A DNA stretch of 64,000 nucleotides from assembly GCF_032062135.1 (NCBI RefSeq), contig NC_092862.1:64039930-64103929 (forward strand), written 5' to 3'. Positions 461-24,350 of this stretch are shown in pieces; positions within the stretch are counted from its first letter, which is position 1, and every line of letters starts with the position of its first letter. Below the pieces are notes generated by a model. It was not told the DNA's origin. It did no database searches and saw nothing but the letters and a program-made list of their open reading frames with translations. The translations under genes were made by a program, and so were the position numbers. The stretch comes from Pyxicephalus adspersus. Lineage: Eukaryota; Chordata; Amphibia; Anura; Pyxicephalidae.

Positions 461-814
461 TCACGGTACGTGCCCACCCCACTACACCCCTGTCTGTGTC
501 ACTCAAAGGGGAAGAAACTTCCCCCAGAGTGATGTCATTATACCAGAACCCGTCCATTCTCCCATCACAAGTCTGAGCCTGTAATGGGAGAGTGGGCGGG
601 TTGTGTTAAGTGAGACAGCCCACCCACCGCCCTGAGCCTGCAATGTCTCTTGGAGACATGGACTGCTGCTCTGGCCGGTGCACCCCCGCAAGTGGGTCCT
701 TCTCCTGAGGGACCACCAAAGAATACTTTGTAAAAAATGAGTGGGCATGCTTGCCCACTCCCGAAAAAAGTGAGGGCGTGGTGTTCCCACCTGTGCCCAC
801 CTGCTAAACCCCTG
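461..814. mobile_element. hAT-like non-autonomous element, two similar ends
   Basis: The segment is GC-richer than its surroundings and ends with GTGCCCACCTGCTAAACCCC plus TG. On the minus strand this reads CAGGGGTTTAGCAGGTGGGC, a hAT-style terminus. A similar end, GTGCCCACCCCACTACACCC plus CTG, lies in the same orientation at about 470-492, so two copies or a duplicated end are likely. A perfect hairpin GAGTGGGCA/TGCCCACTC sits near 739-760. No coding capacity is convincing; the 154-codon antisense frame is incidental. Confidence 0.45.
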
Positions 815-1031
815 GTTGTAAAGCTCCAAGAATATAGGTCCTCTGCAAAGAGACTCACAATGAAGACAAAAGGCAATCTGTGCACCAGGGAGACATGGAA
901 GCTAATATTGACCTCCCTTAAAAAAGTCTGCCTGGTTGTTATACTGACCCTGTGCTTCAGTATGCACTGACTGTAAACTAGCTTGAAGATTAGGGCTTCT
1001 GAAGAAAATCTGACTTTCCTGATCTGCAAAG

Positions 1032-1198
1032 TAAGGGCTCTATTTATGAAACAGGGAATCTGACATTCCCTCAGGAATTCCCTGGAGGGAATTAATTTTC
1101 AATTGCCAATTGAAATTGAAATACATGGACCTAAAAGATTCCCATGAGGTAATGTTTGAGGGAATGTCTAACTCCCTGTTTTATAATAGGAGCCCTTA
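1032..1198. mobile_element. 167-bp MITE with TA duplication
   Basis: The ends form terminal inverted repeats: TAAGGGCTCTATTTATGAAA on the left and the complement of GTTTTATAATAGGAGCCCTT plus A on the right. Matching continues inward through ACAGGGAATC...GACATTCCCTC against its mirrored copy. The outermost TA on both sides would be the target duplication of a Tc1/mariner-type element. There is no coding sequence. The superfamily is inferred from the TA only. Confidence 0.75.
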
Positions 1199-3415
1199 GT
1201 GTTGACAATAATGTACAGTTGAAACTACAGGTTCAGATGATGGCCAGGCAGCTATAAATTTATCTTTCATCATAATAAATAATTATATTTAATTCTGCGT
1301 TTTTGCCAATACATACAAAACCAGATTCCTATTTTAATGGCCCTATTTGTTCTCCTTTTACTGTTTGAATAAAATATTAATTTTCTTTCAGAAATCACTT
1401 ACACCTTTAGTCGAGTGTCAGTCAAGCAATTAATATTTTCACACCTTGTGCACTCTTTGGTAACAAGTTAAAATTTTACGCCTCATTTTCAACAGTCTTG
1501 AATGTAGAACCTGATAAGGGAGCTATATTATAGCAATTATATTTTATTAAGCAGGTGTGCATGTGAACCCTGAAGGTGTAAGGAATAGAACATTCAGTCT
1601 TTTTTTTAAGTATTGACTCTTCCTAATTAGTCAGAACAATATTGATATGCTAATAAAGGATAATAAATTTTAATTGTGTATCACTTATGAAACCACCCTA
1701 TAAAAGGACAATGGGCACCTAGAGAGGCCTATGCTACTGAATGAACCCCAGGAGCCTGAGTTCTCCACCATGCTAAAAACTTCAGCTAAAAGGTCAGCAC
1801 TTTGTTCTGCCAACCAAAGTTACACGCTGATATAGCTAGCAAAAGGTAAGTTCTGACCTCTGCAGGTGCTGTGCAGTCATTTTCATTTTTTTTTTTTGCA
1901 GTATTGGTAGAAAAAAGGTACCTTGAGGTAGCCAGATGTATTTTGTGTTAATTTCAGAAATTATGTCAGCAGGCACTCTGCAAGGTCTCTCTGCATATGT
2001 GGGTTGGAAAAATGTCTCATGGGCACCTAACAAGCTGCCGGTAGGAGAGAAGGAGCAAACCACACTACAGTTTTAACGTGTTGCCCTTGCGATTGCAGTG
2101 CAGTTCTTCCTCGAAAATTAAAAAGCAACTGTGCAGCCAGAATTAACTTGTCGTTTCTAGGAACTGTCCCCCAATCCACTTCAGCCATGACCATTTGCAA
2201 ACACGTGTGGTTGAAGTTGGAAGAGTGGTAGAAGGTGGTAGTGAAGCCAGTAGTAGAATGCTGCAGTTAACTACAAGTCTGATAGGCTTTAACTGTTTCA
2301 AACATTCAGTTGGTTTGTTTTGCTCCAATGAACAAAAAAGGAAGATTAGATTAGTACTGCCACTGATCTAGTCATAAATCCTCTTATTTTTAAAATAATC
2401 AAATTAACTTTATTTTCTATGAGAAAATACAGCTTATAAAAAGTACATTTTGTCATCAGAATCAAATTACAATTATGTAAATAAGTTATGTTTTCATTTA
2501 CATAAATACATTTGCATAAATATTGAAACAATAGATAATTGTTGGAATGGGACAAATATGACCTAACAAATGACATTTATCAACTGTGCATTAGACTGTG
2601 ATGTGCAAAGTAAATTTTACCATAACGAGAAGTGAACAAGTGAAACTATGGAAGATAGAATAATGATCCAATAACACAATTAAATCCTACAGTCACAAAA
2701 TCACCACTAAGTGCATTTTGCTTTTAGTAATCTTGTTTTACATAGAGCACAGAATATTGATGGTAAAGAAGATACACATATTTCTATGTATACTCCAATT
2801 CCAGCCAACAAATAAAAATATTCACGAAGCTACGAATGCTACTTTCTATGATAAAGTCAAAATATTTGCTAAGTGAACACTAGTGTCAATTCTTTGTACA
2901 CTTCTGCAAGCACAATCCAAACAGAACATGGTTGTTGAGAAAATTATTGTATTGTGACCCTTCCACACTATCTATCCACCTCATATCTTCAGTTACATTA
3001 CATTTTGGGCCATGCTTGGGTATCATAGGTGGCTTTTTAAAAAATTATTGGAACTCACATTTTCTCTTTAACAGGGAAAACCACCAAGCTGGTGTAATAA
3101 AGAATATGGCATCTGAATTCAAACACAAGTTCCTATATTACTGGAATATTAACAAAATGTAGGGGGTGGATTTATACATTACAACTACTACTGGATGGGG
3201 AAAATGAAGTACAGAGTAAGTAGATAGAACTCCCTGCATATACTTATAAATGTACATCTAGGTACATCTAATTTTAATGTCAAATAACTTAAGCCCTAGG
3301 CTAGAAGAAGAAGGATCCTTAAATGTTATTTAGGGAGTTTATAAATAAACTCCCTAATAAACTCTCTTTGTTTAATGACTTTATTACTTTAGGTCAGCTT
3401 CACATCTTATATAAG
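1199..3415. other. AT-rich non-coding DNA, nothing recognised
   Basis: No repeat family, splice-flanked exon or RNA gene is recognised. The open frames here (up to about 76 codons) are short, AT-driven and lack recognisable domains. Confidence 0.5.
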
Positions 3416-18800: not shown

Positions 18801-20830
18801 GATCCTTCCGCCCGGTATAAATTTTTACCATTGTTGCAGAAAATGAGACATCACCTTGAATTTGAGCTTCCAGCATTTCTCTGTTGAGTAAAGTTTTTAG
18901 AGATAGAACTACGTGCTCCACCTCAGGCGACTGAGATTGGACCCACATATTCATAAAAGTGCGTCTAGCTGCTAATAGGCAGACACTTATCCAGGCCCTT
19001 GATGCCTGAGGCATGACTGTAGGAACCGTGTGGCCCCTGAAAAGCAAAAGGGATGGGTCATCTGGTACAACGTAGCCTGCCACATTGTTCACCCATAACA
19101 GCATTTTTTTGCCAGAATTCAGCAATACATGGGCAAAACCATAAACAATGAGACAATGAAACAGATAAATAGTTACATTTAGGCCATTGAATATGCCACG
19201 CTCTGGTATGGGTTTCGCCCTCAGATGGCCTAAATACCTTATAAGCCCTGTGGAGTATCATGATTTGAGATTCTCTCCAGATTTCATTTATCATGCTTTT
19301 TCTATTGAATTGGTAACCTTGCACTGCGCAATCTACTATATCCTGATAAGGAAAATTCCTGTGCCAGCGCTTCACGTTAGTACCAGATATCATGGCACTG
19401 GGCTTGCGGGAACATCAGATGGCGACATATTGGTATTTATTTAGACACACCTATTGGCACCTTAAATGTTTTCTGAAGTTCTTTCCATGTGGCTACAGTA
19501 TCCCTGATCAGAATATTACACCTCAGGTAAGGGTATATATTTTACAATGACACACAATTTCCAAGGGTATACCAGTGCACTCTCCAAATGAATATTAGAA
19601 CAGTAGGAGGTTTCCTTGATCCAGTCCACCATGTGTCTAGATATACTAGCCAGATTATATAGTCTGACGTTTGGAAAACTAACACCGTCTTCATTTTTAG
19701 GCAAATACAACTTTGCTATATTTATTCTCGGGCGCTTGCCTTTCCATAAAAATTTGATAAAAGCATTAATAATAGCATTAACATTAGTATATGGTATTAA
19801 CAAAGGCATAGTCGGCATAGGGTAAAACAGCTTGGAAAAGGACATCATTTTGATTAGATAGCAATGACCCATAAAGGAGAGGGGCAGAATTTCCCATAAT
19901 TTAAGTTCTTTTTGTATTTTGGCTATCAAAGTGGGGTAATTCAATTTGTACAAAGAAGAGGGTACACGACCAATGTGTAGTCCCAGATAGGTGACGTGAT
20001 CCTTAGCAATCTTGAAGGGAATGTGGTCTCGCCACTTATCAACCAGAGATGTAGAAACAGACAAGCGGTATACCATGGAGAAGTGGCGTTTGGTCCATAT
20101 ATCGAACTAATGGCTCCAGTGCTAAATTAAATAGGAGGGGAGACAAGGGGCAACCTTGCCTAGTCCCCCCATGTAAAGCAATAGTGTGGACAGAAATCCA
20201 CACTATTACTATGCACTCTGGCTGTAGGTGATTTATACATTTAGCTGCTATTAGTCAATGCTGTTCTGCCTTGGACAAATACCACCAAGATGAGATGAGA
20301 GAGGGAAGGAGTTTGGCCAGCCTATCTGCAAGTATCATGGAAAGTATTTTCGCATCCATATTCACCAAAGATAACAGACGATAAGATTCAGGGGCACAGG
20401 GGTCCTTATCTTTTTTCAAAATAAACTTAATGAAAGCCTCTTGGCCTAACGGAAAATAACATCCCCTCACCCACGTGACTTAGTATAATACCACTTGGTC
20501 ATCCACAATATCATCCTTTAAGATCTTAAAAAATTTGTCCGTGATACCGTCAGGGCCATGGGCTTTACCATTTTTTAGAGCATATTTAGTTGCTAAAATT
20601 TCAGGTGTCGTAATTGGTGCATTAAGAGTGTCGAGGTCACTGTAGACGGGGAGTACAGATCTTGGAAAAAATGTGCTAAGTGATGGTTAACATCCTTAGG
20701 GTTAGTAACAATTTTCCCCAAGGGCATGCACAACCTAGGTATATGCATGGGCTTAAAAAGCTAGTTATTTTTAATGAGCCCAATTAGAATCACTTTGAAG
20801 GTTGCAGTCCAATTTGCTTTTTGAGTGTTT
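18800..20830 (-). pseudogene. Tx1/L1-like ORF2 remnant A
   Basis: Minus-strand pieces follow ORF2 order. GKAHGPDGIT lies near 20570-20540. SYRLLSLVNMDAKILSMILA is at about 20400, TRQGCPLSPLLFNLALEP at about 20165-20110, and YLGLHIG with the following thumb region at 20000-19520. A C-terminal WPKCNYLSVSLSHCLWFC zinc-knuckle-like motif is near 19200, and ARRTFMNMW near 18970. The block that should carry the catalytic F/YADD motif between LALEP and YLGLHIG is deleted, and several frameshifts separate the pieces. The endonuclease and ORF1 are absent (5' truncation). It cannot encode an active reverse transcriptase. Confidence 0.85.
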
Positions 20831-20974
20831 ATGTCTTAAATCTCTGCTAGACTGGAAATAAGGAATAAAAAACATTAGTTAGTAATTCACAAAACTTTAA
20901 CACACTTAAACAAATATTTGTTTTTCAACTACTGAGGACCTTTAATAGCTAGGAGGGGACACAGGTGCTTGCTG

Positions 20975-21570
20975 GATTGTAGGGTCTTGCAATGTCAGGC
21001 AGACCTCGATTGATGTACCAAAAAACTGATTTTTCAAAAATGTCTTGCTGTAAAAGCTTTGTGAATTGAGAAAAAAAGAAACGGTTGGATGATGTAATTG
21101 GGGCACATGTGATTGCTGCATTGTAAGGCCTTGTGCAGACAGGCTGACCTGTATAGACATACCAGCTAACTGTTATTCTTTGAAAGTGTCTTGTCTTGTG
21201 AATCAGTTGGACAATGCCATTGATCAGTCAGCTGTGATGTCATCGAGTAGAGCACCAAAAAATTGGCTAGGAATGTAAGGACTTGCGCAGACGGTGACCT
21301 CAATAGACATGACTGTCATTCTTTGAAAATGCCCTGCCTTGTGAATAGGTTGGACAATGCCATTGGTCAGTCAGCTGTGATGTCATTGAGTAGAGTACCA
21401 TAAATTGGCTGGGAATATAGGGCCTTGTGCAGACAGGCTGACCTCAATGGACATACCAAGTAACTGTCATTTTTTGAAAATGCCTTGTCACGTGAATAGG
21501 TTGGACAATGCCATTGGTCAGCCAGATATGAGGTCACAGCATAAAGTAGACAGATTGAAGCTGTGGGTTT
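20975..21570. repeat. Tandem array, four units of about 147 bp
   Basis: The unit starts GGCCTTGTGCAGACAGGCTG and runs through GTCATTCTTTGAAAATGCC, GTTGGACAATGCCATTGGTC and AGCTGTGATGTCATTGAGTA. Starts lie near 20977 (diverged), 21125, 21278 and 21420, giving periods of roughly 141-153 bp. Units 2-4 are similar; unit 1 is the most diverged. The array ends about 245 bp before the ATG of the RING-H2 gene. It could be its promoter-proximal repeat or subterminal repeats of a transposon; neither is proven. Confidence 0.8.
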
Positions 21571-21814: not shown

Positions 21815-21890
21815 ATGCCAAGAAGAAATGTCAGAGGCCATTCACTGCCCAACATCCATCAAATGCCATCGCAGGAGGAAGGCCAGTCAG
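21815..21890 (+). CDS. Exon 1 of the RING-H2 gene
   Basis: It encodes 25 codons plus one base, starting MPRRNVRGHSLP. The preceding 150 bp carry a pyrimidine-rich CCTACACC-type repeat and no TATA box. The donor TCAG|GTAAGA matches the consensus well. The start was chosen because it is the first ATG before the donor in the frame that continues into the RING finger. Confidence 0.65.
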
Positions 21891-22211
21891 GTAAGAAAAC
21901 ATAAACATTACTCATTGTGCTTCAAATATTTAAATTATTTATGTCTCTATTGTTATATTTGTGGATTCATATTTCACAGTCCATATAACTGTAAAGGTCA
22001 GGAAAGGCTTGCATTAAAGCTTGTTTACTGGTTTGAACATTAGTTCAATGATGGCTGATGTCACAAACATGGCAAACAAACCATGATTTTTTTGTTTTTT
22101 GTTTTTTTGCAAAACATGGCAATAATAAATGTTGGGATCATTAAAATAATTGGTTTAGAGGTAAGCATCTCCCATTCAGAAATAACTAACCATACATATT
22201 TGTCATTGCAG
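21891..22211 (+). other. Intron of the RING-H2 gene (GT-AG, 321 bp)
   Basis: It opens GTAAGAAAAC and closes CATTTGTCATTGCAG-like before exon 2. It is AT-rich compared with the exons, which supports real exon-intron structure. The retained intron argues against a reverse-transcribed origin of this copy. Confidence 0.65.
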
Positions 22212-22739
22212 GCCAATATTCTTCAATTGCTCATCGGACCAGATCCAGAGCTCCACTTGGAGGCAGGGTATCTGACCATCAGCTGCCTCAAAGACCTAGA
22301 AGAAGAGGACGTCCCAACACCAACACCAACTCACAAAAGGACCAAAGCCGTTCTCCAGCTGGCCACAGGGATAAATACCATCCAGGACCCCAGAATGACC
22401 AGACACCGCCAGCCAATGACCAGCAGACTAAGGATCAGCCAAGCTGCAGCAACTGCTTGATTGAATTTGAACACGGGGAGCAAACTGAAATAACACTGTG
22501 ATCATGAATTCCACCAGGCCTGTATCATCAGATGGCTGAGTGAAAGACGTATCTGTCCCATGTGCCGGACACCTATACCTCGAACAGTGGTTTGTTGCAT
22601 GTCCTATCAATCTTTTCTATATTGGGTGATGCTTTTATTTTTTATTTTATTATCCTTTAACCTTCCTACATTTCTGTCTGGATTTATTTGTCTAAAAGCG
22701 GTAAATTGTTTTTTCATGAAAATGTATTTTACAGTATAA
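22212..22739 (+). CDS. Exon 2 of the RING-H2 gene (frame broken at 22499)
   Basis: The upstream frame (22214-22498) encodes the basic, Gln/Asn/Pro-rich linker, the AT-hook and the first RING Cys pair (CSNC at about 22445-22456). The frame restarting at GAT 22500 encodes DHEFHQAC, RWLSERRICPMC and a hydrophobic C-terminus, ending at TAA 22737-22739. The two frames meet with a 2-nt deficit in a TG dinucleotide run. Confidence 0.65.
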
Positions 22740-22990
22740 TATATTAGTATGAGCATAATAAAGTTTCAAACACAAAATCATGTAAAAATAATAAAATAAA
22801 TAAATTCAAAATAAAACATTATTTTGTTTTTTTAATTAAAAAAAAATATTATACTCATACAATTATATTATACTGTATAATAAATGTTCATGAAAACAAT
22901 GCACTGCTTTTACACATAAAAAACCAATGTATTGCATTCAATACAGTTATTTTGTATTGAATGCAATACAAATGGATTTTGAATTTCCCG
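22653..22990. repeat. AT-rich foldback module
   Basis: It begins TTAACCTTCC and has weak inverted symmetry: CATGAAAATGTATTTTACAG near 22714 against a mirrored stretch near 22870-22900. A perfect 16-bp inverted repeat follows, GTATTGCATTCAATAC (22929-22944) and its complement (22954-22969) with a 9-nt loop, then GAATTTCCCGCC. It shares the CAATACAGTTATTTTGT module with 18747-18764. It overlaps the 3' end of the RING-H2 gene, so that gene's C-terminus and UTR may lie in repeat sequence. Confidence 0.55.
22757..22762 (+). terminator. AATAAA polyadenylation signal
   Basis: A canonical AATAAA lies 18 bp after the in-frame stop of the RING-H2 gene. The surroundings are very AT-rich, so a chance occurrence is possible. 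Confidence 0.4.
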
Positions 22991-23058
22991 CCCCACTGCC
23001 AACGTACACACGCACCAACGTCACCGGGAACTCCCTGGTGACTCATCGTGTGCAGAAG

Positions 23059-23608
23059 ATGCCGAAGGAAGAAGAAAGAAGACAGGGATTGCGGCGATAC
23101 ACAACACGAGACACTGGTGGATTAGAACGTCGGGGGGGTAAATTTTAACGAGGGTTTTCACTTTTTCCCCAGGACATCGGCTTTGAGGAGGAGAGGCTAG
23201 TTTTTTGGTGGTCTGAAGAACTGCAAGAAGAAGTCCAGTTCCTCGCCCCTACAGAAGTCATAGATGCACTGCCATTCAGTAATGTTCTTTACAGATGAAA
23301 ATGGAGAACTTTATATGTATTATGCATAGATCTCAAACATCTGAGTAACATCTGGATGGACATAACATCTGGGAGATCTGTTGGCTGGTTCCTTTGTGAG
23401 TAATCACCTCAACCCAATCAGGTATGTGATATATCAATTACTTTAATGTCCTGTATCAGTAGCTCTAATAAATGATATCTTTTTTCTGCAGGGCGAGAAA
23501 ACCATCTTGATGGGAAAAGATTGCCTCCCCCGCAATTGGGCAGAGCTCCTGTCTTCAAGGACTACCAGTGCTGCATCAGGCTGCATGGGATCTGATTTTT
23601 AGACATCA
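23059..23608 (+). pseudogene. Unrecognised exon-like coding remnants
   Basis: An ATG at 23059 opens MPKEEERRQGLRRYTTRD, running to a possible donor near 23139. An acceptor-like TTTTTCCCCAG precedes a reading frame from 23175 with FEEERLVFWWSEELQEEVQF. After a shift, the text DENGELYMYYA is readable, and then DLKHLSNIWMDITSGRSVGW in the first frame. A donor CAG|GTATGT is at 23420, an acceptor TTTTTTCTGCAG ends at 23492, and a last piece GEKTILMGKDCLPRNWAELL ends at TAG near 23600. I do not recognise the protein. Splice-like signals plus non-random residue content suggest a decayed gene carried by the same repeat as the RING-H2 gene, but this is inference. Confidence 0.35.
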
Positions 23609-23659
23609 TTAGATCTTGCAAAGGTAATTATAAGTTAGTCTGCTTTTGCCAAAGGGAAG

Positions 23660-24350
23660 GGGGCTACTCACTTTTTGCCCCCATTCTATTATGGCCTATC
23701 CAAAAAGGTCCCAAGCCCATAAAAGATCTGATCATCATCTCATCATCTCCATCTACTACCTGTCCACTTGACCCAATTCCCTCTGATCCACTCCGTGCCC
23801 ATTCCTCCACCCTGGCCCCTGCCCTAACTGAACTATTCAACCTCTCCCTTTCTACTGGTAAATACCCCTCAGCTTTAAACATGCCATAATTCTATAACCC
23901 TATCCTAAAGAAACCCTCACTGGACCCCTCCCGACCCTCTAACTCCCATCCTATCTCTCTTCTCCCATATGTCTCCAAACTTCTTGAACGCCTTGTCTAC
24001 AAAAGACTCACCCTTTACCTGAGCACCAACTCTCTCCTTGACCCCCTCCAGTCTGGTTTTAGAGCTGCCCACTCCGCTGAAACACCCCTTACTAAAGTGG
24101 CCAATTAGTTCATCAGAGCTAAGTCTCAAGACAACCTTTCCCTGCTCAATCTCCTTGATCTTTCCTTACTTTTGACACTGTTGATCACCCCCTTCTAAGA
24201 CAAATCATGCCCTCCATTGGTATCAGTGACACTGCTCTCTCTTGGTTTGCTTCCTATATTAGTCTGTCATTTGCAATCCCTATTTAATGTACAGCGCTGC
24301 GTAATATGTTGGCGCTATATAAATCCTGTTTATTAATAATAATAATAATA
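23660..24350 (+). pseudogene. L2-type non-LTR reverse transcriptase remnant with 3' tail
   Basis: Plus-strand pieces read [73 protein letters not shown] and then FDTVDHPLLRQIM...ALSWFASYI. These are in the fixed order of L2/CR1-group RT motifs. In-frame stops (for example near 24108) and frameshifts disable it. After motif A (FDTVDH) the sequence jumps straight to the typical 3' tail TGTACAGCGCTGCGTAATAT...GGCGCTATATAAAT with (AAT)n, so the catalytic YADD part is deleted. Confidence 0.85.

Follow-up and report, generated by a model that had tools for sequence, protein, structure and literature searches.

A dead member of a probable dispersed RING-H2 gene family in Pyxicephalus adspersus and a delta-type ribozyme candidate in the 3′ UTR of its relatives

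A stretch of 64,000 nucleotides of the Pyxicephalus adspersus genome (the window) carries a small, interrupted gene in which a basic N-terminal stretch precedes a RING-H2 finger, and the question it raises is whether such a gene belongs to a mobile element, to a single host locus or to a family of its own. In all likelihood it is the dead member of a dispersed multigene family and not the gene of an element. Many relatives carry a conserved RNA element in their 3′ UTR, considered further below.

All features of the window given here lie on the forward strand. The gene starts with an ATG at 21815; exon 1 (21815-21890), for which homologous sequence is found in 19 of 20 relatives, is followed by a GT-AG intron 1 of 321 bp (21891-22211) and joins in frame at 22212, as an earlier note on this DNA had modelled. 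Exon 2 (22212-22586) encodes the basic N-terminal stretch (HRTRSR, RRRGRP) and the RING-H2 finger (about 22445-22567); its 3′ end is approximate and the donor of intron 2 is non-canonical in this copy. The broken RING frame described in that note is real, the reading frame being interrupted near 22500, where relatives read on. Pfam scores the second half of the finger (22494-22739) as zf-rbx1 (34.1 bits, cut-off 31), and against zf-RING_2 the half finger reaches 26.2 bits, below the cut-off of 27.3. What had been described as a natural stop and a hydrophobic C-terminus (about 22586-22739) is read-through of intron 2 (22587-23172, left end approximate), which contains a TTAA-type repeat at ~22657-23125; the hydrophobic tail is not protein because the gene resumes after intron 2, at 23173, where the acceptor reads ...CCCCAG/GACATCGGC... 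The C-terminal exon (DIGFEEERLVFWWSEELQEEVQF...; 23173-23345, end approximate) is homologous to those of the relatives L025, L019, L015 and L011 and, as judged by eye, carries a further frame shift near its middle. It is followed by a 3′-UTR intron-like stretch (GTATGT...TTCTGCAG; 23422-23491), whose donor end recurs in 14 of 20 relatives, and by the rest of the 3′-UTR homology (23492-23704), past which the relatives' RNA element is missing; the window holds no match to the RNA core at up to three mismatches and none with model R1. After the shortened 3′ UTR, and outside the gene, comes a LINE reverse-transcriptase fragment (23890-24108; RVT_1, 22.2 bits, E 0.00013, below the Pfam cut-off of 29.6). 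With its RING frame broken, its C-terminal exon shifted and the 3′ end that bears the RNA element lost beside a LINE, the window copy is a pseudogene.

Upstream of the gene, in a promoter-like position, lies a tandem array of 2.8 copies of a 143-bp unit (21124-21536), a period that had been put at 147. Sixteen of 20 relatives have, 5′ of exon 2, a match to the stretch 20754-21536, which includes the array. Because its units hold CCATTGGTCAG and TGATGTCAT, which we take to resemble CCAAT and ATF/CRE-type sites, the array may amount to a promoter in repeated form.

The relatives were found by direct search of the same genome (1.44 Gb, 8082 contigs). Exon-2 DNA returned matches for 40 of 40 scored candidates (1165 at first look), the window copy among them, and the best match other than itself reaches 83% over query positions 1-369; the gene is thereby more than the chance pattern of RING spacing for which the earlier note had allowed. 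A search with PF13639 yielded 149 matches from 150 scored candidates (526 at first look), a number that includes other RING genes such as the RLIM-like L008. With the 197-aa sister protein P0001 as query, 279 candidates appeared at first look, of which 150 were scored, and the matches numbered 160. Among the 150 matches listed, 97 span the RING, with a query start at or before residue 80 and an end at or beyond residue 110; they include the query's own locus, not the window copy, and one or two may duplicate a single locus. Stops interrupt 35 of these, and the other 62 are stop-free, which together with the array common to 16 of 20 loci bears out the expectation of multiple unbroken copies that share their flanks; the alternative of one syntenic ortholog is excluded. 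Another 22 of the listed matches begin at residues 118-121, and 17 of these are stop-free. Family copies are dispersed over 12 large contigs (C1-C8, C10-C12 and C14), a spread that would not be usual in an ordinary host gene family and counts against that reading. Twenty 10-kb loci were fetched, and because they were picked by RING score the conservation of the RING among them is biased upward. A strict pattern finds an open RING frame in 15 of the 20; L015, L019, L020, L023 and L027 miss it, yet an ORF is present there.

By sequence, the family is predicted to encode small (about 200-280 aa) proteins with an Arg-rich basic N-terminus, one RING-H2 finger and a fast-evolving C-terminus. Pfam recognizes zf-RING_2 in all five relatives submitted (53-57 bits, cut-off 27.3), with the C3H2C3 zinc ligands in place, and no family over the N- or C-terminus of these five. 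The AT-hook proposed earlier fares less well: RGRP is present in the window, but no AT-hook family appears at E ≤ 1 among the Pfam hits of the five relatives, and the GRP core is kept in 7 of the 13 copies that cover the stretch (15 aligned rows less L017, which has N there, and L021, whose frame misses it). We regard the assignment as weak. The RING of P0001 resembles that of RNF38 (2.7e-14), RLIM and RNF165. These proteins, RNF165/ARK2C and Praja among them, share the RING-H2 ligand pattern and are the best sequence matches; the family differs from them in that the match is confined to the RING, the protein is small, the copy number is high and a conserved 3′-UTR RNA is shared. None of 15 candidates from a large protein collection, whose vertebrate coverage is uncertain, was homologous at E ≤ 1e-3.

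Selection on the protein was estimated by the Nei-Gojobori method (NG86) on codon alignments of the 15 copies with an open RING frame, L017 and L021 being only partly readable. The median dN/dS is 0.40 for the N-terminus and 0.39 for the RING (105 pairs each), values drawn from non-independent pairs and biased by the choice of loci for the RING, less so for the N-terminus. For the C-terminus the median is 0.79 (78 pairs, again not independent); L024 and L025, whose C-termini do not align, were omitted.

The introns vary among copies. Intron 1 is missing from 17 of 19 readable fetched copies (L017 has N at the site); 10 of the 17 read CAACAG/GCCA contiguously, at exactly the junction 21890/22212 for which the earlier note had sought confirmation, and the remainder differ by a few bases, L025 retaining 12 extra bases. 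A GT-AG intron stands at the same place in L011 and L015, and that of L015 is homologous to intron 1 of the window (72 bp at 88.9%), from which intron 1 is read as ancestral. In a 20-row tree L015 and three intronless copies form a supported group of four, the window and L011 being placed in the other half. The three close relatives of L015 that have no intron 1 are L027, L020 and L023. Because intron 1 is homologous and its bearers occur in both halves, the tree as drawn requires at least three losses. Of the copies inspected, only the window copy, L015, L019 and L025 have intron 2 between the RING and the C-terminal exon; in L037 it shows as a read-through frame. The donor end of the 3′-UTR intron-like stretch is present in L009-L015, L020-L023 and L026-L028, 11 of these 14 loci having an acceptor-like end as well; the stretch is not seen in the other six of the 20 loci checked (L016-L019, L024 and L025), the donors that turn up in L019 and L025 being those of intron 2.

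How, then, did the copies spread? Their number, their dispersal on many large contigs and the upstream array common to 16 of 20 loci would suit a mobile element, for instance an undescribed DNA transposon with the RING protein as its accessory or sole gene, as the earlier note had envisaged, and the 22 listed matches that begin at residues 118-121 share a common start. We nevertheless consider this origin improbable, since its marks are missing. Besides the RING frame no ORF of at least 130 aa recurs, by eye, in the 20 loci, and neither a recurrent transposase-like ORF nor terminal repeats nor sharp unit ends were seen there by eye and by collinearity. Pairwise collinearity gave no common left or right homology ends in 173 locus pairs; the ends vary widely (deciles from -1365 to -142 on the left and from +223 to +2390 on the right), and a target-site duplication was not seen by eye for the close pair L022/L026. 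As to the common start, L029 and L043-L046 are matches of this kind and L030 begins later; in all six a dispersed repeat with a common tandem array of ~98 bp, a period deduced from alignment offsets, surrounds 3′ fragments of the RING gene. The inspected fragments are taken as passengers of another repeat because they lie beside this shared array, and because two of the four fetched (L043 and L046) are without the RNA element in the stretch read. Near the 3′ fragment of L030, ORFs at ~630-1550 (minus strand) resemble, as judged by eye, a Harbinger-type transposase. The two RNA elements inspected away from a RING (L029 and L030), candidates for independently mobile solo elements, proved to be gene 3′ fragments; the genome search with the RNA element had returned 40 matches for 40 scored candidates (176 at first look). 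The TTAACCCCC repeat was rejected as a pair of unit ends: 13 of 23 stretches hold its strict pattern in the forward and two in the reverse orientation, once far upstream (L010) and once in an inverted duplicate (L013). This repeat (TTAACCCCC...) occurs in the window (22657-23125) and in L013-L017, L021, L023, L025, L026 and L028-L030, nearly always in the same orientation near RING genes, and a number of its copies apparently descend from a single insertion.

The frequent absence of introns invites another account, that LINEs copied spliced mRNAs and carried promoter monomers along. That 17 of 19 copies lack intron 1, with repeated losses, and that few have intron 2 would fit such retroposition; however, the 3′-UTR intron-like stretch is retained in 14 of 20 loci, homology extends beyond AATAAA, and no poly(A) tail with a target-site duplication was seen in a non-systematic look. 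L015, which has the introns, and L027, which lacks them, moreover have homologous blocks in both flanks of the gene (L015 3439-8446 against L027 3556-7590, gapped), which suggests that intron loss took place inside a copy made at the DNA level. We hold retroposition to be very improbable indeed. The earlier note had argued from the retained intron to a DNA-level capture; the 3′-UTR stretch supports the level of copying, but intron 1 itself, gone from most copies, does not. A multigene family is thus the reading we retain, and we read its spread as mainly at the DNA level, with repeated intron loss, because the 3′-UTR intron-like stretch was kept in 14 of 20 loci despite the loss of intron 1.

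The RNA element of the relatives, ~150 nt long, lies 0.9-2.4 kb 3′ of the RING in 18 of the twenty 10-kb loci. It is uninterrupted in 16; its core falls in an N run in L012, the element of L013 holds an insert, and none was recognised in L023 or in L011, where Ns are present. Twelve later loci, read over 2.4 kb each, gave six strong matches, a weak one in L032, where much of the core is gone, and no convincing match within the stretch read in five. The core is 98.6% identical among 12 loci whose RING DNA is 77.2% identical. AATAAA follows the element within about 260 bases in 7 of 16 copies.

The element can be drawn as a double pseudoknot in the order P1a-P2a-P3-P1b-P4-P2b, with a P1 of 7 bp, a P3 of 3 bp and an L3 of 7 nt. 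This delta-type layout was noted after a weak first Rfam listing and before any Rfam alignment had been seen; the later Rfam alignment to the F. prausnitzii delta ribozyme agrees with it on P1, P3 and L3 and puts J4/2 elsewhere. The Rfam scores (24.8 bits, E 0.0067, in a 201-base search; 21.5 bits, E 0.04) miss the gathering score of 44, and whole-locus scans (E ≤ 5 or 3) list the element in 4 of 11 loci that bear it. A fold descriptor composed with knowledge of the element recovers 14 of 16 copies, L009 and L015 being missed, and matches neither the window nor any further site in the 20 loci; order-2 random sequence (83.2 Mb) yields seven matches. Viral contigs gave no match to one pattern of the RNA core.

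Across 24 copies standard pairing holds in 97.6% of 695 pair cells, compared with 28-48% for slid structures. Two-sided changes occur in P4 alone (2 pairs, 10 cells), P1, P2 and P3 hardly varying, and shuffles reach the observed counts in 30 of 500 cases for pairs and in 0 of 500 for cells. P1, P3 and P4 also come out of RNAalifold, which draws no pseudoknots and gives the P2b stretch another partner. A nested partner of P2b, AGAGT upstream of P1, was rejected, since it is broken in 6 of 16 copies (L015, L016, L017, L018, L020 and L027); P2a is kept in these six except for one mismatch in L015. In J4/2, C132, A134 and A135 are invariant in all 24 copies and the N position varies (C, with T in L019 and A in L041); from its position C132 would be the catalytic C. 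The base at +1 is C in 23 of 24 copies and T (U) in L036, never G. On its modelled fold we propose the element as a delta-type ribozyme candidate; it is not filed as a member of the class because +1 is not G and the Rfam threshold is missed.

Similar to known delta ribozymes (F. prausnitzii RF02682, those of R2 5′ ends and of the CPEB3 intron), the element has the helix order P1a-P2a-P3-P1b-P4-P2b, a 7-bp P1, a 3-bp P3 with a 7-nt loop, and C-N-A-A before P2b. It differs from them in its C/U at +1 in place of G, its long P4, its Rfam scores of 21.5-24.8 against 44, and its site in a protein-coding 3′ UTR, not in a retrotransposon 5′ end or an intron. Published accounts place delta-type ribozymes at retrotransposon 5′ ends (PMC3774820; PMC7761336), beside phage tRNA genes, where the first base after the cut is written G1 (PMC10879173), and in the CPEB3 intron (PMC10919898). 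Neither a delta-type ribozyme in a frog or in the 3′ UTR of a RING gene nor ribozyme-type control in protein-coding 3′ UTRs appears in the titles and opening lines of abstracts that made up our partial sample of mainly open-access literature.

Taken as a working scheme, the family would consist of E3 ubiquitin ligases in which the RING recruits an E2 and the target is selected by the variable C-terminus; the copies would have spread by DNA-level duplication, and the 3′-UTR RNA with its delta-ribozyme topology may cut or stabilise the mRNA. Tentatively, and with the balance of our judgement against it, we suggest that many family members carry a delta-class self-cleaving 3′-UTR ribozyme that severs the coding part from the poly(A) tail and so acts in cis on expression, a control more strongly conserved than the protein itself.

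TRIM and finTRIM genes are lineage-specific expansions of RING genes in vertebrates. The present family shares this kind of expansion with them and differs in having a RING-H2 finger and, among the Pfam hits of five relatives, no B-box or B30.2.

A cutting RNA element would be a rare natural example of ribozyme control over protein-coding mRNAs, dozens of them, in a vertebrate; were it only to fold, a 3′-UTR core so much better conserved than the RING DNA (98.6% against 77.2%) would still signal a strong function. The expansion of genes of putative E3 type, together with a fast-changing C-terminus, is the pattern expected of genes in conflict.
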